A stretch of DNA of 35,090 nucleotides from an uncultured Candidatus Saccharibacteria bacterium (lineage in GTDB: Bacteria > Patescibacteriota > Saccharimonadia > Saccharimonadales > Saccharimonadaceae). The stretch spans positions 1 to 35,090 of the forward strand of contig CAMVNH010000005.1 in assembly GCA_947168825.1 (NCBI GenBank). Direction: 5' to 3'. A model generated the notes under the pieces. The model was not told where the DNA came from. It saw only the letters and a program-made list of their open reading frames with translations, and did not search any database. Numbering within the stretch: position 1 is the first letter of the stretch; each line of letters starts with the position of its first letter. The translations under genes were made by a program, and so were the position numbers. This document shows, one piece after another, positions 5,485 through 23,815 of the stretch.

Positions 5485-6054
5485 ATGGGAAGTGTCATAT
5501 ATCAAGATTTTTCGGACGTCCGTCCTCTAAGGCTTAAACGCCATCACTGGAGTGTTCGTCATACAAAAATAGCGATCCTAATCTTTTATTTGCTTGCTAT
5601 CCCTACCTACCTCATTATCGGCCTGCAGCCTTCTTCCACATCCATGGCCGAGACTTTGGCCGCCGAAAGTCAAAACGCTTCTGGTTTCCTCATTATCAAT
5701 AGTATCGGCCTTTCCACTCCGGTCGTCGATGTGGCGCTTCAAAATCGCGTCCTTTCAGCTCCAGAATATATCGCCGGCAGTTTTAGCTCCGAGCCACATA
5801 AGACTCTGCTCATTGGCCACTCGTCTACGATTTTCCAAAACCTAAAAGATGTCAAATTCAGCGACATTGTAGACTATAACGAACATTCTTATCGCGTCGT
5901 AAATATTGAAACTCGCGCCAAAGAAGATATTTCCATGTCTCACATCCTTAAAGGTGAGACTGTTGACACTATCGTTTTGATGACTTGCACCGGTCAGAGT
6001 ATTGGCACTAATGATTATAGCCACCGCCTTATTATTACCGCCGAAGCAGTTTAA
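5485..6054 (+). CDS. Sortase (class D/E/F-like)
   Basis: This 189-aa sortase has a cytoplasmic basic N-terminus, one transmembrane anchor (about residues 27-47) and a compact catalytic domain: LLIGHSSTIF with His112, VLMTCTG with Cys168 and SHRLII with Arg181. The length and TLxTC-like motif fit housekeeping or pilin-type class D/E/F sortases rather than class A or B. It would act outside the membrane and couple surface proteins to an acceptor. The start is fixed by an extended -10 only 11 nt upstream. It follows the Ser/Thr-linker sortase in tandem and may work with it on different substrates or in sequence. Its stop is 7 nt from the convergent GH97 stop. Confidence 0.85.
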   Translation: MGSVIYQDFSDVRPLRLKRHHWSVRHTKIAILIFYLLAIPTYLIIGLQPSSTSMAETLAAESQNASGFLIINSIGLSTPVVDVALQNRVLSAPEYIAGSFSSEPHKTLLIGHSSTIFQNLKDVKFSDIVDYNEHSYRVVNIETRAKEDISMSHILKGETVDTIVLMTCTGQSIGTNDYSHRLIITAEAV

Positions 6055-6061
6055 TTTCAAA

Positions 6062-8032
6062 CTACTGAATCTTCTTAAAACGTATCGCAAAACCTCCGCC
6101 TGGAGCCATCCAGACGTCTAGAAAATCGCTGCTACGTACCTTTTTCTGCTCTACCGCAAACGCCAAAGGATTGTCACGGTAATGCGCACCGTCTCCATCC
6201 CGATAGATTTGCGCTTCGTAATCTTCGTCGAACTCCAAAAAGCTCAAATCTAATCGCACGCGCCGCTCAGTCTCATTTGTTACTGCCCCAACATACCAAT
6301 CATCACTCTCGCGATCTTTTCGCGCTACGACGTAATATTCTCCAATCCGCCCAAGCAGCGGCAACGTAGAATCCCAACTCAGCGGCACATCTTTTATGAA
6401 TTGATACATTTTTGAATATTCTTTTTCGTAAAATCTTGGCCGATCAGCCGCCATCTGCATCGCAGAATAAATCGTCACGTAATAGGCTAGCTGCCTAGCT
6501 ATCGTCGTTGCAATTCGCTTTGTTGCGTTCGTCACATCAAAAATTCCACTCGTATAATCCATTCCTCCAGCCAGCAACCTCGTAAAAGGTAAAATAGTCG
6601 TATGCGACGGCGACAACGCACCACCCTCATATTCTTGTCCTCTGGCACCCTCACGTGTAAGTAGATTAGGGAAAGTCCGCTCGATTCCGGTGCCTTTTAT
6701 CGGCTCGTGCACGTCTAACATTATGTGATATTTCGTTGCCAACTCCAAGGCTCTTTGATAATGGTTGACTCCAGCCTGCGAATGATGGTATTCCCTTCGT
6801 CCGCGAATTGTCATCATCGACCCGGCGTAACCAGGCTTGACATAATGCACTCCGTGCGAGGCATAATATTTATAAGCATCCTCCATTTGTTTTTCGTAAT
6901 TGTCGATAAAGCCTACTGTTTCATGATGTCCAACCAACTTCACACCATTTTCCTTTGCGTAGTTTGAAATATCATCCATGTCAAAATCATGCATCGGCTG
7001 CAGGAAATTCGTTTTACTTCCGTTCTGTAGCCAGTCGCCTTCCCAGCCATCATTCCAGCCTTCAATCAGCAGCCCCTCAATTCCCAATCTTTTGCAGGCA
7101 TCGATATATTCATGCGCATGTTTCGTGGTTGCACCATGTCTCGGTCCCGGAGCCCACGTCCATTCACCTACAAACATTGCCCACCAAATTCCCATAAATT
7201 TGAGTGGCTTTACCCATGAGAAATCTTCACGCGCAGGTTCGTTCAGGTTTAGCAACATCCGATTTATCGTCAGGTCTTTTACTGTATCTGCCACCATAAT
7301 CACTCTCCACGGAGTATTAAACGGCAATTCTACGTAAGCTTTCATTCCATCCGAAAGCGGCGTAATGTCGGACATCAGCGCTCGATTCTGATTCAAGCGC
7401 AAAGTCATCGAACCATAATTATAAAGCGCCGCTTCATGAATGGAAATGAAATACCCACTCGGCATCTCGATTGTTAGTGGCGTATGTACCGAATGCGTTA
7501 GTTCGTATACTGGGTCTTGGGAATAATTATATTCATACCGATCCGGCTGATAAGCTGGAATATGCCAGGCTAGCGCATTATTGTCCACTCTAAACTCAGT
7601 AATCTCATCCGCAATCGTTAAGCGTTGATATTCTGGCTGTGGTGGAATTTCATATCGAAAGCTTACCCCCTCATCAAAAACTCTAAACCTCACGGTAAAT
7701 AGCCGCTTTTTGCCATTTATTTCCGCCAGATAAACTGCTAACTCATGATAGTTGTTTCTGATTCGCCTCGCTTCGCCCCATTCAGTTTCCCAAGTTTCAT
7801 CTCTCGACTTTTCGTAATCTCTTACTACACCAAGATCATGAAGCAGCGGCTTTTCACCACGCACAGCAATCCCTAGTGCCGATTCTGCAATCAGTAAGTG
7901 CTGATCTTTCTCGACGCTATAAAAAAACCGCCCGCCTTTCAACTGAACATGTAATACTAGACGACCATTAGGTGAAAAAATTTTTTGGTCGTAGGCTAAT
8001 TTCGGTTTCTTAAACCATGAGAATAACCCCAT
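6062..8032 (-). CDS. Glycoside hydrolase family 97 protein, alpha-glucosidase-like
   Basis: This 656-aa protein has the GH97 architecture: an N-terminal beta-sandwich (about 15-270), a catalytic barrel (about 275-560) and a C-terminal beta domain. Signature stretches are HHET (369-372), DVHEPIKGTG (440-449) and RTFPNLLTREGARGQE (452-467). Spacing against Bacteroides SusB as I remember it suggests Glu371 and Glu443 as the inverting-type bases and Glu467 as general acid, so alpha-glucosidase rather than the retaining alpha-galactosidase branch. Unlike periplasmic SusB it shows no signal peptide, so it probably works in the cytoplasm, perhaps on products of the GH57/GT4 pathway. A TGATATATT box ends 6 nt before the ATG, giving a leaderless start. 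Confidence 0.85.
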   Translation of the reverse strand: MGLFSWFKKPKLAYDQKIFSPNGRLVLHVQLKGGRFFYSVEKDQHLLIAESALGIAVRGEKPLLHDLGVVRDYEKSRDETWETEWGEARRIRNNYHELAVYLAEINGKKRLFTVRFRVFDEGVSFRYEIPPQPEYQRLTIADEITEFRVDNNALAWHIPAYQPDRYEYNYSQDPVYELTHSVHTPLTIEMPSGYFISIHEAALYNYGSMTLRLNQNRALMSDITPLSDGMKAYVELPFNTPWRVIMVADTVKDLTINRMLLNLNEPAREDFSWVKPLKFMGIWWAMFVGEWTWAPGPRHGATTKHAHEYIDACKRLGIEGLLIEGWNDGWEGDWLQNGSKTNFLQPMHDFDMDDISNYAKENGVKLVGHHETVGFIDNYEKQMEDAYKYYASHGVHYVKPGYAGSMMTIRGRREYHHSQAGVNHYQRALELATKYHIMLDVHEPIKGTGIERTFPNLLTREGARGQEYEGGALSPSHTTILPFTRLLAGGMDYTSGIFDVTNATKRIATTIARQLAYYVTIYSAMQMAADRPRFYEKEYSKMYQFIKDVPLSWDSTLPLLGRIGEYYVVARKDRESDDWYVGAVTNETERRVRLDLSFLEFDEDYEAQIYRDGDGAHYRDNPLAFAVEQKKVRSSDFLDVWMAPGGGFAIRFKKIQ

Positions 8033-8068: not shown

Positions 8069-9586
8069 ATGAGAAGCAATATTCGTCGTAAAAAAAGCCC
8101 GCTGAAATTAATCTTGATAACGGCAGTAGCTCTAATCGTTGCGCTTGTCGTTGGCATTAGAATCATCCCCCATGTTCTTGTTCCGACCAAAACCGGAGTT
8201 TTGATTTACGATGATAGTCTATCAGAATCCGAAAAAAATCTTATTGCGGAGGTTGTTTCTGAAGATGAACGTTTTTCAAAGGACCTTATTGCTAGTGCCA
8301 AAGATTCTCAATCTCGGCCGACCGACAACGACCACGAAGTTCTCGCCGACATTCTCTTGCCGGTAGTGGATTTTTATAGTCCGTTCAGCGACATTTCTAG
8401 CGAAAAATTATTAAACGCTACTAATTCGGATGAAATAGAGCTAATTTCACTAAACAACCTTGATTCTTCAAAAAAGCTTCTTTCAGTTGATAATAAATAT
8501 TTCCTTGATGACTTCGATGGCGGCGCCCTATTCCGTACACTTTCTGTCGAAACGACAGACGGTAATACTGATGATGAGGCGCAGGCTCTCGTTGCTAGAA
8601 TTTCCGAGCATTTTCCGAAGTTTATCTCAAAAGATGATGTCTTGTCTATTAACCAGACCGGCGTGACCGCACTTGCCCGTGCCATGCAAACTAAGCTGAA
8701 CCAAGTAGGCGATGCCGGCTATTTTGCCGAAAAAATCGCTGATTTTCTAAGTGCCACTGACCTCACACATATTAGCAACGAAGTCTCTTTTGCCGATAGC
8801 TGTACAACCAGTTCAGGTTCAACTACACTCTGTGCCGACCCTCGCATGATTAAGGCCATTGAGGCTATCGGCACTGACATCGTCGAGCTTACAGGCAATC
8901 ACAACAACGATTGGTCCGCCAAGGCCAATCTAAGTTCTCTCGCACTCTATGAGGAAAAAGGTTACAAAACTTTTGGCGGTGGCAAAGACGAGGAAACTGC
9001 CAAAATCCCTCTGAAGCTCGACGAGAAAAATACTAAAATCACCTGGATTGGCGTTAATCAGTCCACCTCCACGAAGGCTAATGGTCAGGGTGCACTTGGT
9101 AGTCATCCTGGAGCTAACATTTACGACGAAAAAACAGTCAAAGAACAAATCGAATCTGCCAAAAAAGACGGAGATTTTGTCATTGTCGACGTCCAGTTCT
9201 TTGAATGCTATAGCTACCCAGCAAAAGGCACAGAAATGCCTTCATGTGACGCTCCGATTTCCGGGCAGCAATCATTTTTCCGTCATTTAATTGATCTTGG
9301 TGCCGATATGGTAGTCGGTACTCAGGCTCATCAGCCGCAGACTTATGAAATTTATAGCGGCAGGCCAATTTACTACGGCCTTGGCAACCTCTTTTTCGAC
9401 CAAGTTTATTGGCCTGGCACCGAACGAGGAATCATCCTCACGCATTATTTCCTGAATGGCAAACTTCTTCAAACCCGCATTTCTCCGACCATCTACGATA
9501 CTGCACTCCAAGTTCAACTCATGGACAAATCTTCCGCAGAACAATTTCTAACCAGAATTCTTAAGTCTAGCCCGCGCGGCAAATAG
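8069..9586 (+). CDS. CapA-family (PGA_cap) membrane-anchored metallophosphatase-like protein
   Basis: This 505-aa protein has one N-terminal membrane anchor (about residues 13-31), about 200 residues of unassigned extracellular sequence, and a C-terminal CapA/PGA_cap domain. Marks of that domain are SNEVSF (236-241), LTGNHNNDW (274-282) and GTQAHQPQTYEIYSGRPIYY (417-436), which supply metal-binding Asn, His and Glu residues of the calcineurin-like fold. CapA proteins are required for poly-gamma-glutamate capsule export in Bacillus, but most family members have unproven substrates. No capB or capC is present here, so polyglutamate synthesis should not be assumed. It may act on the surface glycan made by the genes downstream. 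It starts leaderless at 8069 and is followed by the MurF-like gene after 35 nt. Confidence 0.75.
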   Translation: MRSNIRRKKSPLKLILITAVALIVALVVGIRIIPHVLVPTKTGVLIYDDSLSESEKNLIAEVVSEDERFSKDLIASAKDSQSRPTDNDHEVLADILLPVVDFYSPFSDISSEKLLNATNSDEIELISLNNLDSSKKLLSVDNKYFLDDFDGGALFRTLSVETTDGNTDDEAQALVARISEHFPKFISKDDVLSINQTGVTALARAMQTKLNQVGDAGYFAEKIADFLSATDLTHISNEVSFADSCTTSSGSTTLCADPRMIKAIEAIGTDIVELTGNHNNDWSAKANLSSLALYEEKGYKTFGGGKDEETAKIPLKLDEKNTKITWIGVNQSTSTKANGQGALGSHPGANIYDEKTVKEQIESAKKDGDFVIVDVQFFECYSYPAKGTEMPSCDAPISGQQSFFRHLIDLGADMVVGTQAHQPQTYEIYSGRPIYYGLGNLFFDQVYWPGTERGIILTHYFLNGKLLQTRISPTIYDTALQVQLMDKSSAEQFLTRILKSSPRGK

Positions 9587-9606: not shown

Positions 9607-9615
9607 TGGTATAAT
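9607..9615 (+). promoter_or_regulatory. Leaderless extended -10 promoter of the MurF-like operon
   Basis: TGGTATAAT (hexamer 9610-9615), then GCTAAT, then the ATG at 9622. This position rules out the upstream in-frame ATG at 9595, which would precede the promoter. Confidence 0.7.
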
Positions 9616-9621
9616 GCTAAT

Positions 9622-10911
9622 ATGATAACTATCGCAAAGCTAAAAAAGCGCTTCTACTTCGTTGCGGCGGCTTATTTTCGATTCTTTGCGAACTTTGCTT
9701 TTAGACGCTGGCATCCACGAGTCATAGCTATTACCGGTTCCGTCGGCAAAACTACCATGCTTAATCTTATAGAGTATGAATTTGGCGACAAAGCTCACTA
9801 CTCGCATGACGCTAACTCCGCTTTTGGCATTGCCTTTGACATGGTTGGCCTAAGAGGAATTACCGGTAGTAAACTTCGTTGGCTCTACCTCATTTTCGCC
9901 GTCCCTATTCGCTCCATTTTTTATTGTCGTAAAGAAAAATTTTATATCGTAGAAATTGATGGCGAACGCCCACATGAGACAGAATTTTTAGCTAAATGGC
10001 TAAAACCGGAAATCACGCTTTGGATTTCGCTCGGTCTTTCGCACGCCGTGCAGTTCGAACATCAAGTAGAAAGTGGTACTTTTGAAAGTCTCGACAAAGC
10101 CATTACTCATGAGTTTGCGATGCTTCCACAATACACTACGAAAAAAATCTTTATTGACGGTGACGTTCCACTCATGTTGAAAGCTACCGAAAAAATTAAG
10201 AAGAAGAACCTTACAAAAGCTGAAGTCGTTAAATGTTTTAAATCCGAGCTCACCAGCTACTCATTATGCCCAGATCATACTGAATTTAAATTCAAAGATA
10301 CTACCTTCCGTTTCTACGCCCCGATACCGAGAGACGTTTCCATTCAGCTAGTCATGTTGGAGAGACTTTGTCACGAGATGAATGTTCCGCTAAAAACTGA
10401 CTTTGTTAATCTCATTCTTCCTCCCGGTCGCAACAGCTATTTTGTCGGAAAGAACGGGCTAAAATTAATTGATAGTAGCTATAATGCACATCTAATCAGT
10501 ATGCAGTCGATCCTAAAAATGACAAAAGAATTAAAGACTAAGCACAAGTGGCTAATTATTGGAGACATCGTAGATCAGGGATCGATTGAAGAACAAGAAC
10601 ATACTAAATTGGCTGATTTAATTGCCGAAGCCAAGCCAGAACAGGTTCTTCTCGTCGGTCGCCGCACCAAGAGATGGACTGCCGCACGTCTGAAAAAATT
10701 AGAAGTAAATTACGTAGCGTTTGATGGTCCGAAGCAGGCACTAGCTTATATCAAACAGCATGCCACTGGCAAAGAAACTCTCATTTTTAAAGGCAGCCAA
10801 TATCTCGAATGGGTTATCGAAAAATTGCTTCTAAATCCTGCTGACGCCGAGCTTCTTCCGCGTCGTGAGCCAGCCGCACAGAAGCGCCGTGAAAGGAGAG
10901 GACTAAACTAA
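9622..10911 (+). CDS. MurF-like Mur ligase lacking the N-terminal UDP-binding domain
   Basis: This 429-aa protein has the Mur ligase ATP-binding core: P-loop TGSVGKTT (38-45), PPGR (267-270), DSSYNA (284-289) and a C-terminal domain beginning LIIGDIVDQG (311-320), all closest to MurF. In ordinary MurF the P-loop lies about 100 residues in, after a domain that holds UDP-MurNAc. Here that domain is replaced by about 30 basic and aromatic residues that could lie on the membrane. It should ligate an amino acid or peptide with ATP, but on a different or lipid-linked substrate. The start at 9622 is fixed by the promoter. It overlaps the next gene by one base (TAATG) and heads an operon with an alpha/beta hydrolase, aminotransferase and two FemABX proteins. 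Confidence 0.8.
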   Translation: MITIAKLKKRFYFVAAAYFRFFANFAFRRWHPRVIAITGSVGKTTMLNLIEYEFGDKAHYSHDANSAFGIAFDMVGLRGITGSKLRWLYLIFAVPIRSIFYCRKEKFYIVEIDGERPHETEFLAKWLKPEITLWISLGLSHAVQFEHQVESGTFESLDKAITHEFAMLPQYTTKKIFIDGDVPLMLKATEKIKKKNLTKAEVVKCFKSELTSYSLCPDHTEFKFKDTTFRFYAPIPRDVSIQLVMLERLCHEMNVPLKTDFVNLILPPGRNSYFVGKNGLKLIDSSYNAHLISMQSILKMTKELKTKHKWLIIGDIVDQGSIEEQEHTKLADLIAEAKPEQVLLVGRRTKRWTAARLKKLEVNYVAFDGPKQALAYIKQHATGKETLIFKGSQYLEWVIEKLLLNPADAELLPRREPAAQKRRERRGLN

Positions 10912-11591
10912 TGAACAAAACACTGTATATTATACACGGTTGGACCTATACAACCGAGCCGTGGGATACCACACTTAGGCTCTTGCAAAAACAGGGGATT
11001 AATGTCAAAATGCTAAACGTCCCGGGTCTAACTTCTCCTAGTCAAAAAGTTTGGGCTATCGACGACTATGTTACCTGGGCTGACAAAAATATTCCAGACG
11101 GAGCCATCGCTTTAGGACATAGTAATGGTGGCCGTATTCTACTAAATTTATTATCAAAAAATCCAGAGAAGTTAAAACATGTTATTCTGTTAGATAGTGC
11201 TGGTGTCTACGAAGAGTCAAAAAAACGTAACCTTGCGCGTAAAACTTCTAAGGTTTTTTCTCCACTAAAACGCGTTAAACTTTTCCGCAAGGTCTACCAC
11301 AGACTACTAGGGGCGACCGATTATGATCGTGCGCCAGAGAACATGAAAAAAACTTTGTCGAATATGCTGGATAGTGACAAAAATCTGCAGCTTGACCAAA
11401 TTACAACACCAGCCACTATTCTTTGGGGAAAGAAGGACAACGTTACTCCACCGCATCAAGGTGCCGCCATCCATAGAAACTTAAAAAACAGTCAGATAAT
11501 TTTCGTAAATGATTGGACCCACGCTCCATATATCTCTGATCCTGTCGGGCTCGCAAAGGCGATTACTAAAACTATGAGGGAGATAGACTGA
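10911..11591 (+). CDS. Alpha/beta hydrolase
   Basis: This 226-aa alpha/beta hydrolase has an oxyanion-hole strand IIHGW (7-11), nucleophile elbow GHSNGG (69-74) with Ser71, acid LWGKKD with Asp176 and base WTHAP with His204. The triad is complete, so it should be an active esterase, thioesterase or amidase. No signal peptide is present. It is coupled on both sides: TAATG with the Mur ligase upstream and TGATG with the aminotransferase downstream. An AGGAG site lies in the end of the Mur gene. The context suggests it processes or edits an intermediate of the same envelope pathway, for example an ester-linked precursor. That role is inference from position only. Confidence 0.8.
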   Translation: MNKTLYIIHGWTYTTEPWDTTLRLLQKQGINVKMLNVPGLTSPSQKVWAIDDYVTWADKNIPDGAIALGHSNGGRILLNLLSKNPEKLKHVILLDSAGVYEESKKRNLARKTSKVFSPLKRVKLFRKVYHRLLGATDYDRAPENMKKTLSNMLDSDKNLQLDQITTPATILWGKKDNVTPPHQGAAIHRNLKNSQIIFVNDWTHAPYISDPVGLAKAITKTMREID

Positions 11592-12700
11592 TGTACTTTT
11601 TAGGACTTGCCGCAAACTATAAAGGGATGGACATTCTAAGGCATACTTTTGCTTTTGGCACCCAGAAAGATTCTGATGCACTTCGAGCTTATCTTGCTGC
11701 ACATTATGGCACGAGTTATAATCATGTCGCTCTGTATCATAACGGGCGTTCAGCCCTAGCGGTAGCGTTAAAATCGCTCATTCCCGAAAAATCTGAAGTC
11801 GTAGTTACTGGCTTTACTTGCTGCGCCGTCGTCCAGGCAGTTCGTGCTGCGCACTGTACGCCAGTTTATGCCGATATTAATCGTGAGACATTGCACTATG
11901 GTCGCGCAGAACTCGAAAAAACTCTCAAAAACCACAAAAATATTAAGGCTATCATCGTCCAAAATACGCTCGGCATTCCGGTAGACATTTCTGAACTTGA
12001 AGAAGTTTGCAAGGAACAGGACTTAGTCATAATAGAGGATCTTGCACACTGTGCCGGCGTTCGCTACGCTGACGGTCGTGAGGTCGGTACGGTCGGTCGA
12101 GCTGCTGCACTTTCTTTTGGCAAAGGTAAAGCCATCGATACCATTTCTGGCGGAGCATTAATCCTGCTAAATCCTGAGGATAAGCCAATCAAACAGCCAA
12201 CGAAACGTCCGTATTTTTCTGAGACTTTGGCTGATCGCTGGTACCCATTTCACGGTCGCATGATTCGCACCTTCCACTATCTAGGTCTTGGTAAAATTCT
12301 TACTGCGATTCTCTTAAAACTTGGTTGTATCGAACGTTCCGCTGATTCTCGCCTCTCTGCCACTACGCGACTAACTCATTGGCAGGCGAAATTGGTTCTA
12401 AGCAAGTTTCAAAAATTACCTAAAAAAGGTCGCCCACCAATCAGAGACCATTACTTCGTCGAAGATCGTGGCGAGTTACTAAAAAGACTACACAAAGTTG
12501 GCTACATGTTTAATGAAATTTGGTACGAGGTTCCTATCTCGCCAGCACGTTATTATAAACGTATGCATTTTGACGAAGAAGCCTGCCCAGTCGCTACTGC
12601 CGTGGCCGACGAAATCATTAACCTCCCGACCTACTACTCAAAATCCGATTTAACGCCAGCCTACAAGATTATCAAGGAGTATAAAATCGATGAAAAATAA
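11591..12700 (+). CDS. DegT/DnrJ/EryC1-type PLP aminotransferase
   Basis: This 369-aa PLP-dependent enzyme has family signatures: substrate and cofactor loop GRSAL (52-56), IEDLAHCAG (148-156) with Asp150 for the pyridine nitrogen, and SFGKGKAIDTISGGA (175-189), in which Lys180 takes the position of the internal aldimine lysine. Most family members are sugar-nucleotide aminotransferases that make amino sugars for glycans. A few make other amines. It overlaps the hydrolase (TGATG) and the first FemABX gene by 11 nt. In this operon it may supply an amino sugar or amino donor that the Mur ligase and FemABX proteins then decorate. Exact substrate unknown. Confidence 0.8.
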   Translation: MYFLGLAANYKGMDILRHTFAFGTQKDSDALRAYLAAHYGTSYNHVALYHNGRSALAVALKSLIPEKSEVVVTGFTCCAVVQAVRAAHCTPVYADINRETLHYGRAELEKTLKNHKNIKAIIVQNTLGIPVDISELEEVCKEQDLVIIEDLAHCAGVRYADGREVGTVGRAAALSFGKGKAIDTISGGALILLNPEDKPIKQPTKRPYFSETLADRWYPFHGRMIRTFHYLGLGKILTAILLKLGCIERSADSRLSATTRLTHWQAKLVLSKFQKLPKKGRPPIRDHYFVEDRGELLKRLHKVGYMFNEIWYEVPISPARYYKRMHFDEEACPVATAVADEIINLPTYYSKSDLTPAYKIIKEYKIDEK

Positions 12701-13649
12701 TGAGAATATTGGTAATTTCTTGCAGTCGTCGGAATGGATGAAAGTAAATGAGCTTGTCGGACATAAAACTATTTCTCGGGTTTTCCAAAAAAAGTATCCG
12801 GTCTACATGATCGTAAAAAACGCCAAACGTGGACGATATTTAGAGATTCCTGGTGGTCCACTTATTAACTGGCAGGACCACGACTTAGTCGAAGAAGTTT
12901 TTGCAGAAATTCGAAAAATCGCACGTCATGAATCATGCGTTTTTATTCGCTTGCGTCCACAACTTCTTGATACCGCCGAAAACATAGAGCTGCTCTTACG
13001 TCTTGGCTGTCGCAAATCCCCGATGCATCTTCATGCTGAGCATACTGTAATCTTAGATCTGACAAAAGAAGAAGACGTTCTTCTCGCGGAAATGCGTCGG
13101 CAAACTCGTTACGAGGTACGTCGTTCCATGAAATTAGAAATTAAAGTCGAAAGTAGCAGTTCCGAAGAATTATTCAACGAATTCCATAAAGTTCAGGTCG
13201 AGACTGCCAACCGCCAGCATTTTATCCCGCCACAAAAAAAGGACCTTTTAGCCGAACGTAAGGCTTTCGGAAATAATGCGGTGATTTATGTAGCAAAAAC
13301 TCCTGAAGACGAGCCAATTGCCTATGGCCTGATTTTAAAAAATGGCGTAGAAGCTGATTATTTCGAAGCAGCCTCCACCGAGCTAAACCGTAAATTGCCA
13401 GGAGCTTATGCTCTGCAGTGGCAGGTGATTCGCGATTTAAAGAAGGAAGGTTTCTTACGCTATAATCTTTGGGGTATAGCCCCTCCGGGCCAGCCGCATC
13501 ATCGCTATGCCGGCGTCACGACTTTTAAAACTGGATTTGGTGGAGAAAATGTAACTTTCGTTCCAGCGCATGACATCGTGATTGACTCACTACGATATAA
13601 GTTCGATCTACTTGTAGAAACCATACGGAAAAAAAGGAGAAAACTATGA
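12690..13649 (+). CDS. FemABX-family aminoacyl-tRNA-dependent transferase, copy 1
   Basis: This 319-aa FemABX (GNAT-fold pair) protein has PGGPLINW near residue 55, a basic helix MRRQTRYEVRRS and a C-terminal WGIAPPGQPHHRYAGVTTFKTGFGG stretch typical of the family (shown in part across residues 270-300). FemABX enzymes transfer amino acids from aminoacyl-tRNA to peptidoglycan precursors, building interpeptide bridges. It overlaps the aminotransferase by 11 nt and has an AAGGAG site at 12674-12679. It overlaps the second copy by 4 nt. The tandem suggests two successive additions. It lacks the coiled-coil arm of staphylococcal FemA and is shorter, as in FemX-like single-residue enzymes. Confidence 0.85.
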   Translation: MKNNENIGNFLQSSEWMKVNELVGHKTISRVFQKKYPVYMIVKNAKRGRYLEIPGGPLINWQDHDLVEEVFAEIRKIARHESCVFIRLRPQLLDTAENIELLLRLGCRKSPMHLHAEHTVILDLTKEEDVLLAEMRRQTRYEVRRSMKLEIKVESSSSEELFNEFHKVQVETANRQHFIPPQKKDLLAERKAFGNNAVIYVAKTPEDEPIAYGLILKNGVEADYFEAASTELNRKLPGAYALQWQVIRDLKKEGFLRYNLWGIAPPGQPHHRYAGVTTFKTGFGGENVTFVPAHDIVIDSLRYKFDLLVETIRKKRRKL

Positions 13650-14695
13650 CAAAATACCAAATCATCGATGCTACCGACCGTACTGCGTGGGATAAGTTTG
13701 TCACTGCGCATCCAGAGGCTAACTTCCTGCAGTCGTGGGACTTCTACGAGTTTCATAAAAGTCGTGGACTTGAAATTGTTAGGCGTATTATTGTCGAAAC
13801 CTTGCCGAAGAGCAGTCGTAAACGTCCTCAAATATTTGCCGCTTATGCTGGGGTCGTAGAACACGCCAAACGTGGGCGACATCTTGCGATTGCTGGTGGG
13901 CCGATTCTGGACTGGAGCGACAAAAAACTCGTCAATATGATTTTCGAAGATATGAGGACGCAAGGCGAGAAGAATAATTGTGTTTTTGTTCGCGTACGCC
14001 CACAGCTCGAATTATCCGACAAATCCTTGAAACTGTTTAAAAATCATGGCTTCAAAAAAGCACCAATGTATCTTTCTGTTGAGTTTGCCGGCGTGCTAGA
14101 CCTCTCAAAAAATGAGGATGAAATTTTAGTCGGTATGCGCCAACGTTTACGTCGTGCGTTAAGGAAGGCCGCAAAAAATGACATCGTCGTTGAAACTTCA
14201 ACCGATCCAAAAGACATCCACACTTTTTATGAAATTCAGCTTCAGACGGCTCGTCGTCATGACTTCGTTAGTTTTTCCGAAGACTTTTTGACTAAGCAAT
14301 TTGCCGCCTTTGCACCAAATGGTGAGGCGGTTCTATACACTGCAAAATATCAGGGCGAAATCCTTGCGCAAAATTTCATGATTTTCTATGGCAATGAAGC
14401 CTCCTATCACTACGGAGTTTCGAGCGAACTCGGCACCAAACTTTCTGGTGCGCCACTTTTGCATATGCAGGCCATGCGCGATGCTCGCGAGCGGGGAATC
14501 AAACGCTATAATTTTTGGGGAATTGTTGATGAGGATGATGTAAAACATCGTTTCTATGGCGTCTCCCAGTTTAAGCGTGGCTTTGGCGTTACGGAGCTAA
14601 AGTACCTTCCGGCCCACGATTTAATTTTGAATCCATTCGCCTATCAAAAAACTAAATTTATTGAAACCGCCCGCCGCAAGCTGCGCCATGTCTAG
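13646..14695 (+). CDS. FemABX-family aminoacyl-tRNA-dependent transferase, copy 2
   Basis: This 349-aa paralogue of the preceding gene has the same landmarks: NFLQSWDFYEF at the start, AGGPILDW, MRQRLRRALRKAAK basic helix and FWGIVDEDDVKHRFYGVSQF in the C-terminal lobe. The two copies are clearly related but diverged (for example different residues before the acceptor-side loop), which suggests distinct amino acids or positions rather than simple gene dosage. Its ATG overlaps the first copy's stop (ATGA). Its own stop overlaps the stop of the convergent TetR-like gene (14692-14695). It is the last gene of the operon that starts at 9622. Confidence 0.85.
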   Translation: MTKYQIIDATDRTAWDKFVTAHPEANFLQSWDFYEFHKSRGLEIVRRIIVETLPKSSRKRPQIFAAYAGVVEHAKRGRHLAIAGGPILDWSDKKLVNMIFEDMRTQGEKNNCVFVRVRPQLELSDKSLKLFKNHGFKKAPMYLSVEFAGVLDLSKNEDEILVGMRQRLRRALRKAAKNDIVVETSTDPKDIHTFYEIQLQTARRHDFVSFSEDFLTKQFAAFAPNGEAVLYTAKYQGEILAQNFMIFYGNEASYHYGVSSELGTKLSGAPLLHMQAMRDARERGIKRYNFWGIVDEDDVKHRFYGVSQFKRGFGVTELKYLPAHDLILNPFAYQKTKFIETARRKLRHV

Positions 14696-15312
14696 ACACA
14701 ATAATTAAGGCGATGGCAAGCCGTGTCTGTCAAATATAGTAGATATTTTATATGCTTATCCACCAATCGATTTGAAAAATTCTCCACAAAAGCCCATTCA
14801 TAGTATTCGTGTAGTAATTCAAAACAGTAGGCTCTGTAAATTCTCGACGTAAGTTGATTATCGGCTTTTGAGGATGGACTTTCTGTATTTTTAGACCATC
14901 TCATTAATACGATTGGCTGTAAATTTTCTGTTGCAAAAATCTTGAGCATCGCTAAGTTTAGGCGACGTCCTGCATTCTTAAAATATAACTGATTATCTCC
15001 AAGATAAGCAAAAAGCCTATAAAAAGTAATTCGTAGATTTTTCGAAGAAACACATTTTTTCAAATCATCATAGACCGCTTGATCACGTGACGCGATTGCC
15101 TCCGGTATATTTGTATAATGGCGATAGAAAGTTGAGGCATAAATCCCGACATATTTACTAAAATCGCACACCTGAGTCTTAATATTATTATTCGCAATCA
15201 TTTCATCAATCGCTTGATTTATGCGAGCCATTGTGCGTCGGAAGCGCTTATCATCCCTATTTTTTATCGAGCCCCCAGTTCGGCGCACGGCACCAGCTAG
15301 ATAATCATACAT
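14692..15312 (-). CDS. TetR/AcrR-like transcriptional regulator
   Basis: This 206-aa protein has an N-terminal helix-turn-helix resembling TetR: residues 26-45 form the first helix, and VCDFSKYVGIYASTFYRHYT (48-67) matches the recognition region (a small residue, then xTFYRHY). The C-terminal two thirds are helical without recognisable ligand motif. It is probably a dimeric repressor, target unknown. Candidates are its own promoter and the adjacent envelope operons. It is transcribed from a textbook promoter (TTGACA-N17-TATAAT) with 6 nt to the ATG, so leaderless. Its stop codon overlaps that of the convergent FemABX gene. Confidence 0.7.
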   Translation of the reverse strand: MYDYLAGAVRRTGGSIKNRDDKRFRRTMARINQAIDEMIANNNIKTQVCDFSKYVGIYASTFYRHYTNIPEAIASRDQAVYDDLKKCVSSKNLRITFYRLFAYLGDNQLYFKNAGRRLNLAMLKIFATENLQPIVLMRWSKNTESPSSKADNQLTSRIYRAYCFELLHEYYEWAFVENFSNRLVDKHIKYLLYLTDTACHRLNYCV

Positions 15313-15891: not shown

Positions 15892-16512
15892 ATGAATGGG
15901 ATTTACCACACTCTCAAGCGAGTTTTTGATTTTTCTATCGCAAGTCTCGGCTTAGTGATTCTTTCCCCTGTTCTTATAATTATAGCAATTACAATAAAAT
16001 TAGATAGTAAAGGTCCCGTCCTGTTTCGCCAAAAAAGAACAGGGAAGAATGGTAGAGTTTTCGTTATCTATAAATTCCGTACCATGATTGCAAATAACGA
16101 CATAACTGACCGAAATTTGCAAGATAAACATACTCGCGTTGGCACCTTTCTTCGCCAAACTTCACTAGATGAACTCCCACAACTCTTGAATGTTATCAAA
16201 GGCGACATGGCTATTATTGGCCCACGCCCTTGGATTACAGATTATTTACTCTATATGAATCCCACCGAACGTGGGCGTCTCGCTGTCCGTCCCGGGATTA
16301 CTGGACTTGCCCAGGCCAAAGGTCGAAACGGCCTAGACATCCACGAAAAAATCGCCTACGACCTTGAGTATGTCGAAAATTTTGGATTCGAAGAAGACTT
16401 AAAAGTGCTTCACTATACGCTTAAATCTCTTCTCCCATCCAGCCACACCCTCGTCGAAGCTGGTAAAGCCCATATCTACACCGAGCTCGATCAGCTTAAG
16501 GCCGCAATTTAG
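15892..16512 (+). CDS. Initiating sugar-1-phosphate transferase (PglC/WcaJ-type)
   Basis: This 206-aa monotopic phosphoglycosyl transferase has an N-terminal hydrophobic re-entrant helix (about 12-36), KFRTM (61-65), the catalytic Asp93-Glu94 dyad in TSLDELPQL, and GPRP (110-113). It transfers a sugar phosphate from a UDP-sugar to undecaprenyl phosphate on the cytoplasmic face of the membrane, the first committed step of glycan assembly. The short length is the minimal PglC form without the extra N-terminal transmembrane domain of WbaP/WcaJ. It is first in a run of six genes ending with a flippase and is driven by a consensus leaderless promoter. The sugar cannot be predicted. Confidence 0.9.
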
Positions 16513-16523
16513 GAGACACCAAG

Positions 16524-17723
16524 ATGGAAACGTCTAAAAACGCTCGCAAAAAGGTTCTGTTTATCATCCATACTCTAGGGGGAGGTGGTGCAGAGGCCGT
16601 CCTAGTCAATTTAGTGAACAATCTATGCCCCAATAAATACGATATAACCGTCATGACGCTCGTTGATACTGGAGAGCTAAAGCATAAATTGGCTTCATAC
16701 GTGACGTATAAGACTACTATTCCAATCAAGCATAAGCAAAAAGTATCTCACAGGGATGTATCCGGAAGCCTACTAAACAAGCAAAGTCGCACGAAAAACA
16801 TTGCAATTAAAACATATACGGCTTTTTGGAAATATTTTCCGACAAAAATATTACACAGACTATTTGTCAGAGAAAAATATGATGTTGAGATTGCTTTTCT
16901 CGAAGGTATCTGCGCTAAATTCGTCGCAAATTCGCCAAATAAAGATTCCAAAAAATACGCCTGGATACATGTTGACCTAGAGAAGCAAGATAAGTCATCC
17001 AAAATCTTCAAAAACTCTAAAGAGGAACGTAGGACATACGAGAAATTTGACAAAATAGTTTGCGTATCCAAAGATGTGAAACGAAAATTTATCAAAAAAT
17101 ATGGTGCAGATAGTCGGAAAGTCATAGTTAGATATAATCCAATTGACGCTGATGAAATTATTGGTAAGGCCATACGCAGTTCAAAACAGAAAAAAGATGA
17201 GCTCATCGTCACTAGTATAGGGAGACTAAATCGTCAGAAAGGTTATGATCGCCTACTTAGAGTAGCAAAACGCCTGATCGATGACGGCGAACAATTTTCG
17301 TTACAAATTATCGGCGAGGGGACCAGTAAGCAGGCATTAGTAGATTATCTCATCAAAAATAATCTCGGCGAAAGCATAAAGCTGCTAGGATTTAAGAGTA
17401 ATCCCTATGGCCATCTTAGGCAAAGCGACATTTATGTCTGTTCTTCCAGAGCCGAAGGTTTTAGCACTTCTGTATCAGAGGCACTTATACTTGGCCTTCC
17501 CATAGTTACCACCAATTGTGCCGGTATGAAAGAAATATTGGGTGAGCACAACGAATATGGAATTATTACTAAGAATTCTGAAAATGCGCTATACGAGGGT
17601 CTAAAAAGTCTATTAAGCTCTGCAAAGTTGCGCTCATACTATCGCGATCAAGCCGCTAAACGGAGCCAAATTTTTGATATAAGATCCGCAATCGCAGAGA
17701 TAGAGGAGCTACTAGATGCGTAA
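16524..17723 (+). CDS. GT4 family glycosyltransferase
   Basis: This 399-aa GT-B glycosyltransferase begins VLFIIHTLGGGGAEAV (the glycine-rich acceptor loop of GT4 capsule enzymes), and has SIGRLNRQKGYDRL in the second domain and SRAEGFSTSVSEAL as its EX7E-like donor site. It should add the second or a later sugar to the lipid-linked intermediate on the cytoplasmic face, with retention. It follows the initiating transferase by 11 nt with a weak GGAGA site near 16512, and it overlaps the GT2 gene by 8 nt. From this gene onward AGA, AGG and ATA codons become common, unlike the flanking genes. Confidence 0.85.
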   Translation: METSKNARKKVLFIIHTLGGGGAEAVLVNLVNNLCPNKYDITVMTLVDTGELKHKLASYVTYKTTIPIKHKQKVSHRDVSGSLLNKQSRTKNIAIKTYTAFWKYFPTKILHRLFVREKYDVEIAFLEGICAKFVANSPNKDSKKYAWIHVDLEKQDKSSKIFKNSKEERRTYEKFDKIVCVSKDVKRKFIKKYGADSRKVIVRYNPIDADEIIGKAIRSSKQKKDELIVTSIGRLNRQKGYDRLLRVAKRLIDDGEQFSLQIIGEGTSKQALVDYLIKNNLGESIKLLGFKSNPYGHLRQSDIYVCSSRAEGFSTSVSEALILGLPIVTTNCAGMKEILGEHNEYGIITKNSENALYEGLKSLLSSAKLRSYYRDQAAKRSQIFDIRSAIAEIEELLDA

Positions 17724-18663
17724 TTGTCCGAGAGTTAGTATTGTCATACCAGTATTTAACGGCGAAAAATATCTATGCCGTAGCATTGAATCTGTCCTCA
17801 AACAAACTTACCCCAATATTGAATTAATTGTAGTAAATGATGGCTCGACCGACAAAACCACTGAAATTCTTGGACATTACCAGAAAACAATAAAAATTAT
17901 CGAGAAACAGAACACCGGGGTATCCGATTCTAGGAATATCGGTATCAAGCATGCTTCCGGCGAATACGTTATGTTTCTTGATGTCGACGATGAGATTACG
18001 GCTGATGCCGTAAGCTATTGTGTTGAGACGATGCGAAACGTAGGCGTTGACATTATTCGCTTCAATGGTCAACTTAGATACAATAACAAAATTAGAAAAA
18101 TGAGACCACCTTTAAATGAGGGAGTTTATGCAAAGGATGAGTTCTTAAACGAAATCTTATCCGGCAAAATCCCCTCTTTTGCCTGCTTTTTATTTGCAAG
18201 AACAGACCTAGTAAAAAAAGTCTTTTTTCCGAAAAACATATCCTATATGGAAGACTACTCATTCACGATCGACCTCGTAAGCCACTCGCAAAAAATCTAT
18301 CTATCCTCCAGACCGCTCTATGTGTACTATCAAGAATCGACATCGGTCAGTCACTCGATAGATATTAAAAGAAGACTTACTGGGATCTCATATTCATATC
18401 AAAAAACCACAGCAAAATTAAAGCTGCCAATAGGCAAACGGGCAGCGAACTACTTTATTGGAATCTACTTAAAAACCGAACTGTACTTAGATTCAAATCA
18501 TAGCTACTGGCACAAAAAAATTTTAGGCAATGTTCAATCTATCCTCAGAGAAAACCACCTCACATATAATAACCTCAGCCTCCAAAACAAGATACTTTTT
18601 ATAGTCACAAAATCAATTATTTCATTGCCTGGTATAATTAATCATGGGAGGGCGACAAAATGA
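17716..18663 (+). CDS. GT2 family glycosyltransferase
   Basis: This 315-aa GT-A fold inverting glycosyltransferase has VSIVIPVFNGEKYL (7-20), VVNDGSTDKT (39-48) and FLDVDDEI (87-94), whose DVDD is the metal-binding DXD equivalent. These are the standard GT2 marks. It should extend the lipid-linked oligosaccharide. It overlaps GT4 upstream by 8 nt and the CDP-glycerol transferase-like gene downstream by 4 nt, so translation is coupled. About two thirds of its arginine codons are AGA or AGG, in contrast with the CGC/CGT-dominated LCP gene downstream, a sign of different origin. Confidence 0.85.
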   Translation: MRNCPRVSIVIPVFNGEKYLCRSIESVLKQTYPNIELIVVNDGSTDKTTEILGHYQKTIKIIEKQNTGVSDSRNIGIKHASGEYVMFLDVDDEITADAVSYCVETMRNVGVDIIRFNGQLRYNNKIRKMRPPLNEGVYAKDEFLNEILSGKIPSFACFLFARTDLVKKVFFPKNISYMEDYSFTIDLVSHSQKIYLSSRPLYVYYQESTSVSHSIDIKRRLTGISYSYQKTTAKLKLPIGKRAANYFIGIYLKTELYLDSNHSYWHKKILGNVQSILRENHLTYNNLSLQNKILFIVTKSIISLPGIINHGRATK

Positions 18664-19829
18664 TAAGCAAAATCGCAAAATTCATATACGCTAGCATTGT
18701 TTATACTTTTGTGTACCTTTTTCTAGTTGTTCCTACCCGTGTCCTAAAAATTAAAGTCCCAAATGACATTTGGCTAGTTGGGGAGTTACGAGATTCCGCG
18801 CGTGATAATGGCCTGGCGTTTTATGAATATTGTGCTAAAAATCACCATGACAACGTCTATTATGTTATTAATAAAAAGTCGCCAGATTATAATTTCATAA
18901 AATACAAGAACCATGTAATTCAATACGGAAGCATTAAGCATATATACTACTATCTCCTAGCGTCCCGCGTTGTCGTATGCTTTGAAGGTGGATTGTGTCT
19001 AAGCAAAGCTTTAGAAAATATTCTAAGAAAGATTGGTGTACTTAGAACAAGTGAAGTTTTTTTGCAACATGGAGTCACTAAAGACTATATCTCCGGCTAT
19101 ACGTTTGAGCATTATAAGCCAGACTTATTTATCACCGCAACTAAACCTGAGACGAAATTCATTGTTGAAAAATTTAATCAGCCAAAAAGGGTCGTAAAAA
19201 TGACTGGGTTTGCTCGTTTTGATCTTCTCGAAAACATTGCAACTGGCACAGGCAGTATTCTCGTCGCGCCAACTTGGCGACGATGGATGACCTCGCTTAG
19301 GCCAGACGATTTCGTTAAAACAACATTTTTCAAGAAGTACACTGAGCTATTTGACATATTATCTAATTTAGATGATACCAGCACTATAGTCTATCTGCAC
19401 AATAATTTTCAAAAATATACTCATCTGTTCCCAATTTACAAAAATATTCGTTTCGTCACCTCAAACGATGTCAGGATAAATACGCTATTTATGAAAAGCG
19501 ACCTAATGATTACTGATTATTCAAGCGTCGCGTTTGATTTCGCATATATGAACAAGCCAGTAATCTATTACCAATTTGATGCCGATGAATTCTTCTCCAA
19601 ACATTACCAAAGAGGGTATTTTAGCTACGAACGTGACGGTTTTGGCTTAGTGACTAAAACTTCGCCTGAATGTCTAGCAGAAATTAGCCGCATTAAAAGA
19701 CGCAATTTTTCAATGTCAAAAAAGTACTCTGCTCGTGCAAAAAGCATTTTTACGTATAACGACAATAATAACTGTGAACGAATTTATCGTAAGGTAGCCG
19801 AACTAGATAAGGGGGCCACTTATGCTTAG
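18660..19829 (+). CDS. CDP-glycerol glycerophosphotransferase-like (teichoic-acid TagB/TagF type)
   Basis: This 389-aa protein belongs to the CDP-glycerol:poly(glycerophosphate) glycerophosphotransferase family. It has an N-terminal hydrophobic stretch (about 10-28), FLQHGVTKDY (134-143), APTWRRW (203-209) and MITDYSSVAFDFAYMNKPV (283-301), the last containing the conserved CDP-polyol-binding residues. Family members put glycerol- or ribitol-phosphate onto a lipid-linked disaccharide (TagB) or polymerise it (TagF), and some transfer polyol phosphate to other glycans. The length fits a single-domain TagB-like primase rather than a long polymerase. The substrate polyol and any CDP-glycerol synthase are not in this window. 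Confidence 0.8.
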   Translation: MISKIAKFIYASIVYTFVYLFLVVPTRVLKIKVPNDIWLVGELRDSARDNGLAFYEYCAKNHHDNVYYVINKKSPDYNFIKYKNHVIQYGSIKHIYYYLLASRVVVCFEGGLCLSKALENILRKIGVLRTSEVFLQHGVTKDYISGYTFEHYKPDLFITATKPETKFIVEKFNQPKRVVKMTGFARFDLLENIATGTGSILVAPTWRRWMTSLRPDDFVKTTFFKKYTELFDILSNLDDTSTIVYLHNNFQKYTHLFPIYKNIRFVTSNDVRINTLFMKSDLMITDYSSVAFDFAYMNKPVIYYQFDADEFFSKHYQRGYFSYERDGFGLVTKTSPECLAEISRIKRRNFSMSKKYSARAKSIFTYNDNNNCERIYRKVAELDKGATYA

Positions 19830-20943
19830 GGAAATGTTAGGCGAACTTATTGTTTATATACTCTCTTACAGTATTTTTGCCTTTTTCATGATTCTACTGA
19901 GCAGACGCATGAAGAATAAAAAGATTGCCAGTCTAATTGTGGTTTTGTCATGCATTATTTACGCCAGTATTAGATATAATGTAGGTTCAGATTATGATAC
20001 ATACTACCTTCAATATAATAATATCCTGAGTTATTTTTCATCCCCGATGCAAATCCTAAATGCTGATTTTCAATCCGGATTTAACCTTCTAGAATTTTTC
20101 ACGAAAGTTTATCTCCAAAATCAATACGCTATATTCTTTGTTGTCTCGCTCATTGTCTACCCACTGAACTTTCTCATTATTCGAAAATGTTCCAAAAATT
20201 TTGGCGAATCAGTGCTACTGTATTTTTTGCTCGGTTTCCATCTTGTGTCTTTAAACATTTTGAAACAAGAAATTGCCATGGTGATATTTTTGGTGATCTA
20301 TAGGCTCCTGTCCTCCCCTAGAAAGAAGTGGTGGCCCTACGCACTAATGGTCGGACTCTCGGTAGTGATGGTTTCATTCCATATTTCCGCCATCATACCA
20401 CTCATCATTCTACTAGCTGCAAGATTTATCAACCCAACTAGACTAAAAATTATACTGTCATTAGCAGCATCATTCATCCTACTCTCCGCATATACCGCAA
20501 TCATGAGCGCTTCTATCTTCTTCGGGCGTTATGTTGGCTACCTTGATGCCGTTAATCACGAATATTATATCGTAATCATTGGCGCTATCGGATATCTCAT
20601 CTTTACATCTATTATCCTCCTATTCCTCATACGGAAGAAAAAAGAGCTCATAAAAATTAACCCTGCCAACAAATATATTATCAGTGCTCTCATTCTCTCG
20701 ATCCCATTCAAGGTAATCGGCATTGATAATTTTCCAGTTTATAGATTATCGCTTTATATCGATCAATTACTTCTTTTCATTATTCCCGATCTTTTAGCTG
20801 TATACAAAAAACAAAATCCAGCAAGATACCACTCGGCCTATATTTTCTACCTAGCCCTAATGTATATCTTCTTTGTGTTCTCCATTGTATTCCTGGCACA
20901 CAATAACTTCTATACGTATCAAACAATCTTTGGCAGAGGGTAA
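19822..20943 (+). CDS. EpsG/Wzy-like oligosaccharide polymerase
   Basis: This 373-aa polytopic protein has about ten transmembrane segments. EpsG-family marks are ASIRYNVGSDYDTYY (48-62), KQEIAMVIF (146-154 region) and FHISAIIPL (190-198 region). EpsG proteins polymerise lipid-linked repeat units on the outer face of the membrane, like Wzy. It overlaps the CDP-glycerol transferase-like gene by 8 nt and precedes the flippase by 2 nt, consistent with a Wzx/Wzy-dependent pathway. Wzy-type proteins diverge very fast, so the family call rests on these short motifs and on the neighbours. Confidence 0.75.
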   Translation: MLREMLGELIVYILSYSIFAFFMILLSRRMKNKKIASLIVVLSCIIYASIRYNVGSDYDTYYLQYNNILSYFSSPMQILNADFQSGFNLLEFFTKVYLQNQYAIFFVVSLIVYPLNFLIIRKCSKNFGESVLLYFLLGFHLVSLNILKQEIAMVIFLVIYRLLSSPRKKWWPYALMVGLSVVMVSFHISAIIPLIILLAARFINPTRLKIILSLAASFILLSAYTAIMSASIFFGRYVGYLDAVNHEYYIVIIGAIGYLIFTSIILLFLIRKKKELIKINPANKYIISALILSIPFKVIGIDNFPVYRLSLYIDQLLLFIIPDLLAVYKKQNPARYHSAYIFYLALMYIFFVFSIVFLAHNNFYTYQTIFGRG

Positions 20944-20945
20944 TC

Positions 20946-22499
20946 ATGCGTACTAAAAATTCTATCATTAATCTGATAACCGCACTTTTAGGGCAGTTTT
21001 TCGGGCTAGCCATCAGTTTTGTCGCACGCATTGTTTTTATTCGTCTCCTTGGGGCGGACTATCTAGGTATTAACAGTTTGTTTACAAATATCCTGACAAT
21101 GCTTTCTCTAGTAGAGCTTGGCGTTGGGGCGGCCATGTCCTATACACTGTATGCTCCTCTCGCGGAGCATAATCACGCAAAAATCAAATCACTAATGCAT
21201 TTTTATAGGACAGCTTATCGTGTCATAGGTGCTGCAATCTTGGCGATAGGTATTCTACTTACTCCTGTCTACCCGCTTTTCCTAAATTTTACGCCTGATA
21301 TACCAAACTTAAACCTAATCTATGTCCTTTTTGTCATCAACACTGGCATCTCTTACTTCTATTCTTATAAAAGAACACTAATCATCTGCGACCAGAAAAA
21401 ATACATTACAACAATTTATCGCTACGGTTGCTATTTTGTACTTAATATCGCTCAGATAGTGGCGTTGCTCCTGACGCATAATTATCTCCTTTTTCTTATA
21501 ATCCAAATATTATTCACACTCGTAGAAAATATTCTGGTGTCGCAAAAAGCGGATAGATTATATCCTTACCTAAAATCCAGAGACACAATGAAGCTCACAC
21601 GAGCAGAACTAAAACCAATCAAAAAGAATATCCGCGCGATGAGCCTTCACAAAATAGGCAGCATTGCTGTAAACTCCACTGACAACATTCTTCTTTCTAA
21701 AATTGTTGGGTTAGTATCTGTGGCAAAGTATTCTAACTATTATCTCATTATTTCCGCAATCGAAACCATTACCAACCAATTCTTCAATGCTACCTTAGCT
21801 AGCGTAGGACATCTTAATGCGTCCGAAAGCAAACAAAAAGTAGAGTCCACATTTAATACCATCTTTCTGCTTAACTATCTAATTTTCAGCAACTGTGCAA
21901 TATTATTTTTCTGTTTAGCTAACAATATTGTCGAAAAATGGGTTGGCGCAGACATGGTATTCGAATCCGGAATAATCCTGACACTGACTATATGTCTTTA
22001 TCTCAAAGGCATGCGCCGTAGCGTATTAATGTTCAGAGACGCTATGGGGTTATTCTGGCATGACAGATATAAGGCGATAGTTGAAACGGTGATAAACCTT
22101 GTAGCTTCTATAATACTAGGCATGCAAATGGGTACGATCGGAATATTTATTGGCACAATCATATCAACTGTTATGACTTCACTGTGGGTAGAACCCTATG
22201 TTCTTTATAAATATGGGTTCAACAGCAAGCTTCGGAAGTATTTCTTTAGCTTTTTGAAATATACGGTATACACTATTTTTAGCGGTGTCATTTGTTATTG
22301 CATTAGTCTTAATTTCTTAAATAACCTTATCTTACGGACCATAGCTGTCTTTATTTTGTCAGTTACCCTAACTACAATACCAGTCATATCTAGCCCAGAC
22401 GCGTTTAAATTGCGTGAGATCGTCAAAGATATTTTCCAGAAAATTACAAGACAAATCGGAAGAATACAACATCCGACATTGACAAAACCACCTAAATAG
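20946..22499 (+). CDS. Wzx-like oligosaccharide flippase (MOP superfamily)
   Basis: This 517-aa polytopic protein with about 12-14 transmembrane helices begins with the typical MOP/polysaccharide flippase pattern (TKNSIINLITALLGQFFGLA, then RLLGADYLGINSLF). It should move the undecaprenyl-linked repeat unit across the membrane for polymerisation by the adjacent EpsG-like protein. The gene follows epsG-like by 2 nt and ends the glycosyltransferase block. The promoter of the LCP gene (22479-22507) lies across its last codons. AGA and ATA codons are frequent, as in the rest of the block. Confidence 0.85.
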   Translation: MRTKNSIINLITALLGQFFGLAISFVARIVFIRLLGADYLGINSLFTNILTMLSLVELGVGAAMSYTLYAPLAEHNHAKIKSLMHFYRTAYRVIGAAILAIGILLTPVYPLFLNFTPDIPNLNLIYVLFVINTGISYFYSYKRTLIICDQKKYITTIYRYGCYFVLNIAQIVALLLTHNYLLFLIIQILFTLVENILVSQKADRLYPYLKSRDTMKLTRAELKPIKKNIRAMSLHKIGSIAVNSTDNILLSKIVGLVSVAKYSNYYLIISAIETITNQFFNATLASVGHLNASESKQKVESTFNTIFLLNYLIFSNCAILFFCLANNIVEKWVGADMVFESGIILTLTICLYLKGMRRSVLMFRDAMGLFWHDRYKAIVETVINLVASIILGMQMGTIGIFIGTIISTVMTSLWVEPYVLYKYGFNSKLRKYFFSFLKYTVYTIFSGVICYCISLNFLNNLILRTIAVFILSVTLTTIPVISSPDAFKLREIVKDIFQKITRQIGRIQHPTLTKPPK

Positions 22500-22507
22500 G
22501 ATAAAAT
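22479..22507 (+). promoter_or_regulatory. Leaderless promoter of the LCP gene
   Basis: TTGACA (22479-22484), 17-nt spacer, TAAAAT (22502-22507), six bases ATTACC, then ATG at 22514. The -35 is coding sequence of the flippase. Confidence 0.8.
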
Positions 22508-22513
22508 ATTACC

Positions 22514-23797: not shown

Positions 23798-23809
23798 GTA
23801 TGCTATAAT
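23781..23809 (+). promoter_or_regulatory. Leaderless promoter of the Wzz/BY-kinase gene
   Basis: TTGACA (23781-23786), 17-nt spacer, TATAAT (23804-23809) extended by TGC, six bases GAAAGC, ATG at 23816. It resembles the promoter at 15857-15885 almost base for base around both boxes. Confidence 0.9.
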
Positions 23810-23815
23810 GAAAGC

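Follow-up and report, generated by a model that had tools for sequence, protein, structure and literature searches.

A conserved gene cassette of Saccharibacteria suggests an unusual route by which the wall peptide is completed and branched

MurF attaches the D-Ala-D-Ala dipeptide made by Ddl to UDP-MurNAc-tripeptide. Both enzymes are antibiotic targets and, to our knowledge, they are nearly universal among walled bacteria. The vanA-type clusters are replacement gene sets that alter how the stem peptide ends, and FemABX enzymes move residues from aminoacyl-tRNA onto the amine of a precursor. One domain of DhpH, a protein of dehydrophos biosynthesis, is a PLP enzyme. Its FemABX-like domain uses Leu-tRNA and a small amine to form a product that resembles a dipeptide (PMC12945691). 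MurT, which has no UDP domain, takes lipid I/II rather than UDP precursors as its substrate (PMC6085368), and the authors of work on MurT argue that this domain would not be needed there and would collide with the membrane (PMC6113224).

The ligase of the cassette described here is like that of MurT/GatD in lacking the UDP-binding domain, and a membrane location is expected for both. However, the cassette contains no GatD class I glutaminase, and its ligase keeps the catalytic histidine and is nearer to MurF in sequence and structure. Its two FemABX proteins share the FemAB domain and the catalytic lysine motif of FemX/FemA/FemB and MurM/MurN, with 6snr and 1lrz as the nearest structures, but they are co-operonic with a MurF variant, a hydrolase and a DegT protein, and in one genome FemAB is fused to DegT. 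That fusion recalls the union of a FemABX-like domain and a PLP enzyme in DhpH, although DhpH belongs to a natural-product pathway that involves no Mur ligase. The van clusters bring in a relative of Ddl and keep MurF, whereas in the present case Ddl has been lost and it is the MurF-like ligase that differs. All of these families are known. As far as the literature was searched, what is new is that they are combined, that this combination and Ddl nearly exclude each other, and that a walled lineage bears penicillin-binding proteins (PBPs) without a detectable Ddl; the search returned a description of none of these, and nothing relevant on Saccharibacterial MurF, Ddl or FemABX.

Layout and conservation of the cassette

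The cassette spans positions 9622-14695 on the + strand of the window, the whole 35,090-nucleotide stretch of DNA that was analysed. The first-pass annotation had read it as five coupled genes that overlap end to end, and the open reading frames, their coordinates and their overlaps are all borne out. The ligase and hydrolase genes share 1 bp, as do those of the hydrolase and DegT; the overlap is 11 bp between DegT and FemABX 1 and 4 bp between FemABX 1 and FemABX 2. The features of the region are as follows.

8069..9586, + strand: CapA/PGA_cap-like protein, directly upstream of the cassette
9607..9615, + strand: extended -10-like motif TGGTATAAT, a putative promoter seen by direct reading
9622..10911, + strand: clade C MurF-like ligase (P0001), with an N-terminal basic aromatic helix and Mur middle and C-terminal domains
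10911..11591, + strand: alpha/beta hydrolase (Abhydrolase_1), with Ser71, Asp176 and His204 invariant
11591..12700, + strand: DegT/DnrJ/EryC1-type PLP enzyme (DegT, 120 bits), with Lys180 and Asp150 invariant
12690..13649, + strand: FemABX transferase 1 (FemAB), with the active-site motif lysine kept
13646..14695, + strand: FemABX transferase 2 (FemAB), with the lysine kept

The TGGTATAAT motif ends 6 nt upstream of the ligase start codon and was not among the sites reported by a consensus promoter scan. Since it lies so close to the start codon, a leaderless transcript may begin there. A 206-aa protein with no Pfam match is encoded on the - strand at 14692-15312, overlapping the end of FemABX 2 by 4 bp. 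No promoter-like site in the region is stronger than the one just upstream of its gene (TTGACA-17-TATAAT at 15347-15319).

The same five-gene order occurs in 25 loci of the genus, a set drawn from named Saccharibacteria records and whole genomes in which some genomes are counted twice. The flanking genes of these loci differ, so the arrangement is far beyond what chance would leave. Named records with informative titles come from goat and sheep gut. A relative of the ligase is present in 68 of the 72 genomes of the genus, and the remaining four are 59-86% complete. The order ligase-hydrolase-DegT-FemABX also recurs outside the genus, in g48, g59, g62, g63, f31, f37 and f9, and the expectation that it would reach beyond one strain thus holds across several genera and families.

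Some variation exists among these cassettes. DegT is missing from that of g53, which reads ligase-hydrolase-FemABX-FemABX, and there is a single FemABX gene in f9, f20, f31 and f37; consequently, neither DegT nor a second FemABX step is obligatory. One genome (G116) has the ligase, then the hydrolase and then a DegT-FemAB fusion, which suggests that DegT probably works with FemABX. Most loci retain the ligase, the hydrolase and one or more FemABX proteins as constant members; no hydrolase or FemABX partner was detected beside the ligase in the G097 locus or in G312. In g48, murE is immediately 5' of the ligase gene, and in g68 it is about 2 kb upstream. Together with the match of the FemABX proteins to lipid II transferases, this upstream murE in two more genera upholds the earlier view of a coupled, conserved system of peptidoglycan type.

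The CapA-like gene does not keep its place within the genus and is probably outside the cassette. A CapA-CapB type pair was considered and seems unlikely, as this neighbor is not conserved with the cassette. A small conserved gene upstream of many loci was also considered as a partner and set aside, since it resembles ribosomal protein S10.

The catalytic residues of the partner enzymes are preserved. The hydrolase triad listed above is invariant in 15 sequences. This protein is related to a hydrolase found upstream of another murF-ddl pair of the order (clade A, below), and it is therefore not specific to the new route. Among solved structures, the relatives of DegT are sugar aminotransferases. 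DegT proteins of the genus (11591-12700 in the window) are about 25 residues shorter in their C-terminal half than that of genome G079 (L076). The two FemABX proteins score 120.9 and 122.6 bits against FemAB (Pfam cut-off 24). The closest solved relative of FemABX 1 is S. aureus FemA (1lrz), and that of FemABX 2 is the S. aureus lipid II:glycine glycyltransferase FemX (6snr). An FK motif aligns in both proteins with the catalytic lysine, which is Lys305 in Weissella FemX (PMC12945691). A cross-bridge would be the simplest and most likely product of these two transferases.

The MurF-like ligase and its relatives

The ligase shares the MurF fold, its P-loop, and Glu111, His141, Arg270 and Tyr287-Asn288. 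Its C-terminal domain is recognized by Pfam (Mur_ligase_C, 40.6 bits) and its middle domain is too divergent for PF08245, but alignment and structural matching place both domains with their ATP-site residues present. The best NCBIfam match is MurF (TIGR01143) at 94.8 bits, far under the cut-off of 288.6, which none of 120 genomes of relatives reaches. Sequence matches in the PDB are to MurF only. The best structural match of the AlphaFold2 model (pLDDT 87) is MurF 3zl8 (VIA Z 28.7, rmsd 3.3 over 345 residues), with MurT also among the fold matches (9sqj, Z 22.3; 6fqb, Z 21.6).

The UDP-MurNAc-binding N-domain is absent from this protein, and its P-loop begins at residue 39. Residues 2-30 form a basic aromatic helix in the model, with a net charge of +7 and F, W or Y at 10 of 29 positions. 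Replacement of the UDP-binding domain by a basic, aromatic N-terminus, as the first-pass annotation had described, is thus confirmed by alignment and model. The hydrophobic moment of this helix is not above that of shuffled sequences, so the case for a membrane role rests on its basic aromatic composition and on the hydrophobic N-domains of the clade A relatives. Absence of the domain is real but not special to this operon. A standard UDP-binding domain was found in no aligned MurF-like protein of the order, which makes its loss a trait of the group.

The MurF-like ligases of the order fall into three well-supported clades (A, B and C) that are separate, with E. coli MurF, from MurC/D/E in the tree. 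Clade A proteins are about 475 aa long, and their N-terminal region contains membrane-like, hydrophobic segments; just upstream of the ligase gene is one for a hydrolase, and ddl is just downstream where this was checked. Clade B proteins, of about 425 aa, are often encoded near Ddl and a class IV aminotransferase. Clade C is the ligase of the cassette. All three share the ATP-site residues, and two substitutions recur in clade C. The DDSYN motif (E. coli Asp330-Asn334) reads DSSYN in the cassette ligase, with YN kept; the position of Asp331 is serine in all 15 clade C proteins and aspartate in 27 of the 28 proteins of clades A and B. Gly160 is changed to aspartate in every clade C protein that was examined.

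Two kinds of neighboring genes were observed at these loci. In G229, a 140-aa open reading frame (L181:10697-11119) matches the N-terminal membrane part of clade A and adjoins a clade C ligase; judging from this resemblance, it is possibly the remnant of a replaced clade A gene. Related proteins of 300-380 aa (L077:1517-2659, L078:6365-7486, L069:4354-5316, L100:4780-5688 and L181:11142-12038) are encoded just 5' of ligase genes that belong to clade B or, in some cases, to clade C. They have one hydrophobic, membrane-like segment near the start, and the four of the five that were scanned have no Pfam match.

Near-exclusion of clade C and Ddl

The genome (578 kb, 87% complete) was searched for MurF with the Mur_ligase_M and Mur_ligase_C profiles, E. 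coli proteins and clade HMMs. None of these detected a second MurF, full-length or otherwise. The cassette was expected to be an extra system beside a normal MurF; instead, its ligase is the only MurF-like enzyme of the genome and in this shares MurF's position in the pathway. The first-pass annotation had held that either a sole MurF that complements a murF defect or an unconserved gene order would speak against its reading; the genome does have a sole MurF-like ligase, which is half of the former, and the conserved loci show the opposite of the latter.

The rest of the lipid II pathway is largely present. MurA, MurB, MurC, MurD, MurE, MraY, FtsW, MurG and MurJ are encoded, as are an FtsI-like PBP and a class A PBP, both with the SxxK, SxN and K(T/S)G motifs. 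Most of the UDP-binding domain is missing from MurE as well (L016:8161-9504, contig C2), and its gene is followed at L016:9935-10708 by one for a 257-aa protein with the Mur middle domain (Mur_ligase_M) alone. E. coli Ddl, Alr, MurI and DacA queries have no match in the genome, and neither Alr nor D-amino-acid transaminase was found in the genus sample. The one weak ATP-grasp match, at C2:4647, was considered as a hidden Ddl and rejected; its sequence and a protease-like neighbor indicate a RimK-like protein. L,D-transpeptidases were likewise rejected as a reason why D-Ala-D-Ala might be dispensable, given that YkuD is absent from the genome and patchy in the genus.

Clade C and Ddl rarely occur together. 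Across 393 genomes of the order, with Ddl called at E <= 1e-15, clade C is present in 120 and Ddl in 236. Ddl is found in 2 of the 120 clade C genomes versus 234 of the 273 without clade C, counts that are not independent because the genomes are related. The two exceptions are G097, in which a clade A ligase is also present and has its own Ddl close by, and G229, in which the Ddl match is weak. At the level of genera, Ddl is lacking in 12 of 14 with clade C versus 17 of 142 others (Fisher p = 1e-8, with related genera again not independent). The split is also visible within genera. In g59, G219 (one contig, 99% complete) has clade C and no Ddl, and Ddl is present in G226 (one contig) and in G383, where about 8 kb separate it from a clade B ligase; in g53, clade C and Ddl are in different genomes. 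Neither is present in 39 of the 393 genomes, and loss of Ddl is therefore not always accompanied by clade C. Three clade B genomes that are 95-99% complete (G077, G096 and G105; loci L086, L098 and L099) have no clear Ddl.

Many relatives with Ddl seem to lack Alr and D-amino-acid transaminase. Since Ddl is kept in genomes that apparently have no enzymes for making D-Ala, uptake of D-Ala alone does not explain its loss. Changes in the PBPs were sought as a mark of a new donor and none was found; class B PBPs share no change that distinguishes clade C genomes from those with Ddl, which argues that the donor still resembles D-Ala-D-Ala.

Possible roles of the cassette

These observations incline us, by a modest degree, to the reading that the cassette replaces MurF and Ddl as the operon that finishes and branches the peptidoglycan stem peptide. 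The N-terminal helix would hold the putative ligase at the membrane, where the enzyme would join a nucleophile not made by Ddl to a lipid-linked or UDP-linked tripeptide. This nucleophile could be one amino acid, possibly incorporated in two rounds, or a dipeptide of some other origin. The FemABX enzymes might then draw on aminoacyl-tRNA to add one or two residues that most likely form a cross-bridge, with DegT preparing an amine for these enzymes and the hydrolase trimming or proofreading an intermediate. If MurF and Ddl have been exchanged in this way, then the stem peptide has a different end or the wall is built on a dipeptide made by the host. The lineage affected comprises the clade C genomes, 120 of the 393 sampled in the order, which keep the lipid II genes and PBPs, and either outcome would open the little-known wall chemistry of these epibionts to mass spectrometry and enzyme assays.

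The host-made dipeptide can also be taken as the whole explanation. Uptake of D-Ala-D-Ala or D-Ala-D-X from a host bacterium would have led to the loss of Ddl, while the ligase made a normal pentapeptide and the FemABX proteins a normal cross-bridge. We regard this as possible, if rather unlikely. The unchanged PBPs are the main point in its favor. It also agrees with the reliance of cultured Saccharibacteria on host metabolites for peptidoglycan (PMC10768705), the lack of Alr and D-amino-acid transaminase in the genus, and the commonness of FemABX cross-bridge enzymes. However, the many Ddl-containing relatives that lack those two enzymes still keep Ddl, and the loss of Ddl mostly tracks a distinct ligase clade with new partners rather than an unchanged ligase of clade A or B.

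A more radical form of the replacement of MurF and Ddl, which we think doubtful, is a tRNA-dependent substitute for Ddl that yields a wall with no need of D-Ala-D-Ala. DegT would make or supply an amine, and FemABX would add to it an amino acid such as glycine taken from aminoacyl-tRNA. The clade C ligase would then use the free alpha-amine of the resulting dipeptide-like unit to attach it to the stem peptide. By analogy, the MurF-Ddl-aminotransferase set of clades A and B might correspond gene for gene to MurF(C)-FemABX-DegT.

It is improbable that the cassette instead serves a surface glycan or capsule, with DegT making an amino sugar, FemABX aminoacylating it and the ligase adding amino acids in a capsule or poly-glutamate-like manner. 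Sugar aminotransferases are indeed the solved relatives of DegT, and the window has the CapA-like gene upstream and a sugar transferase, glycosyltransferases, an LCP protein and a flippase-like protein downstream. Yet neither CapA nor the polysaccharide neighbors are conserved with the cassette in the genus, the ligase matches MurF and not PgsB, and murE adjoins or is near the ligase gene in two genera. A glycan role would also make the association with Ddl loss unexpected and leave the genome without any MurF.

Very improbable is a MurT-like role, in which the ligase activates a lipid II carboxylate for amidation with ammonia from another protein and pentapeptide synthesis is lost or salvaged: the two-domain architecture without a UDP domain and the MurT fold matches fit it, but the Z scores of MurF structures are higher, at up to 28.7, sequence matches are to MurF only, the cassette pairs the ligase with a hydrolase, DegT and FemABX and has no GatD-like gene, and the Mur ligase histidine missing from MurT (PMC6085368) is kept as His141.

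Two other parts of the window encode proteins of carbohydrate or surface type. A polysaccharide-type run at 15892-25935, with the cassette on one side and a ribosomal protein operon on the other, contains a sugar transferase, glycosyltransferases, polymerase/flippase-like membrane proteins, an LCP protein (assigned by Pfam), a chain-length/tyrosine-kinase-like protein and a PHP-type phosphatase. On the - strand at 6062-8032, a glycoside hydrolase family 97 protein adjoins a small sortase-domain protein (5485-6054).
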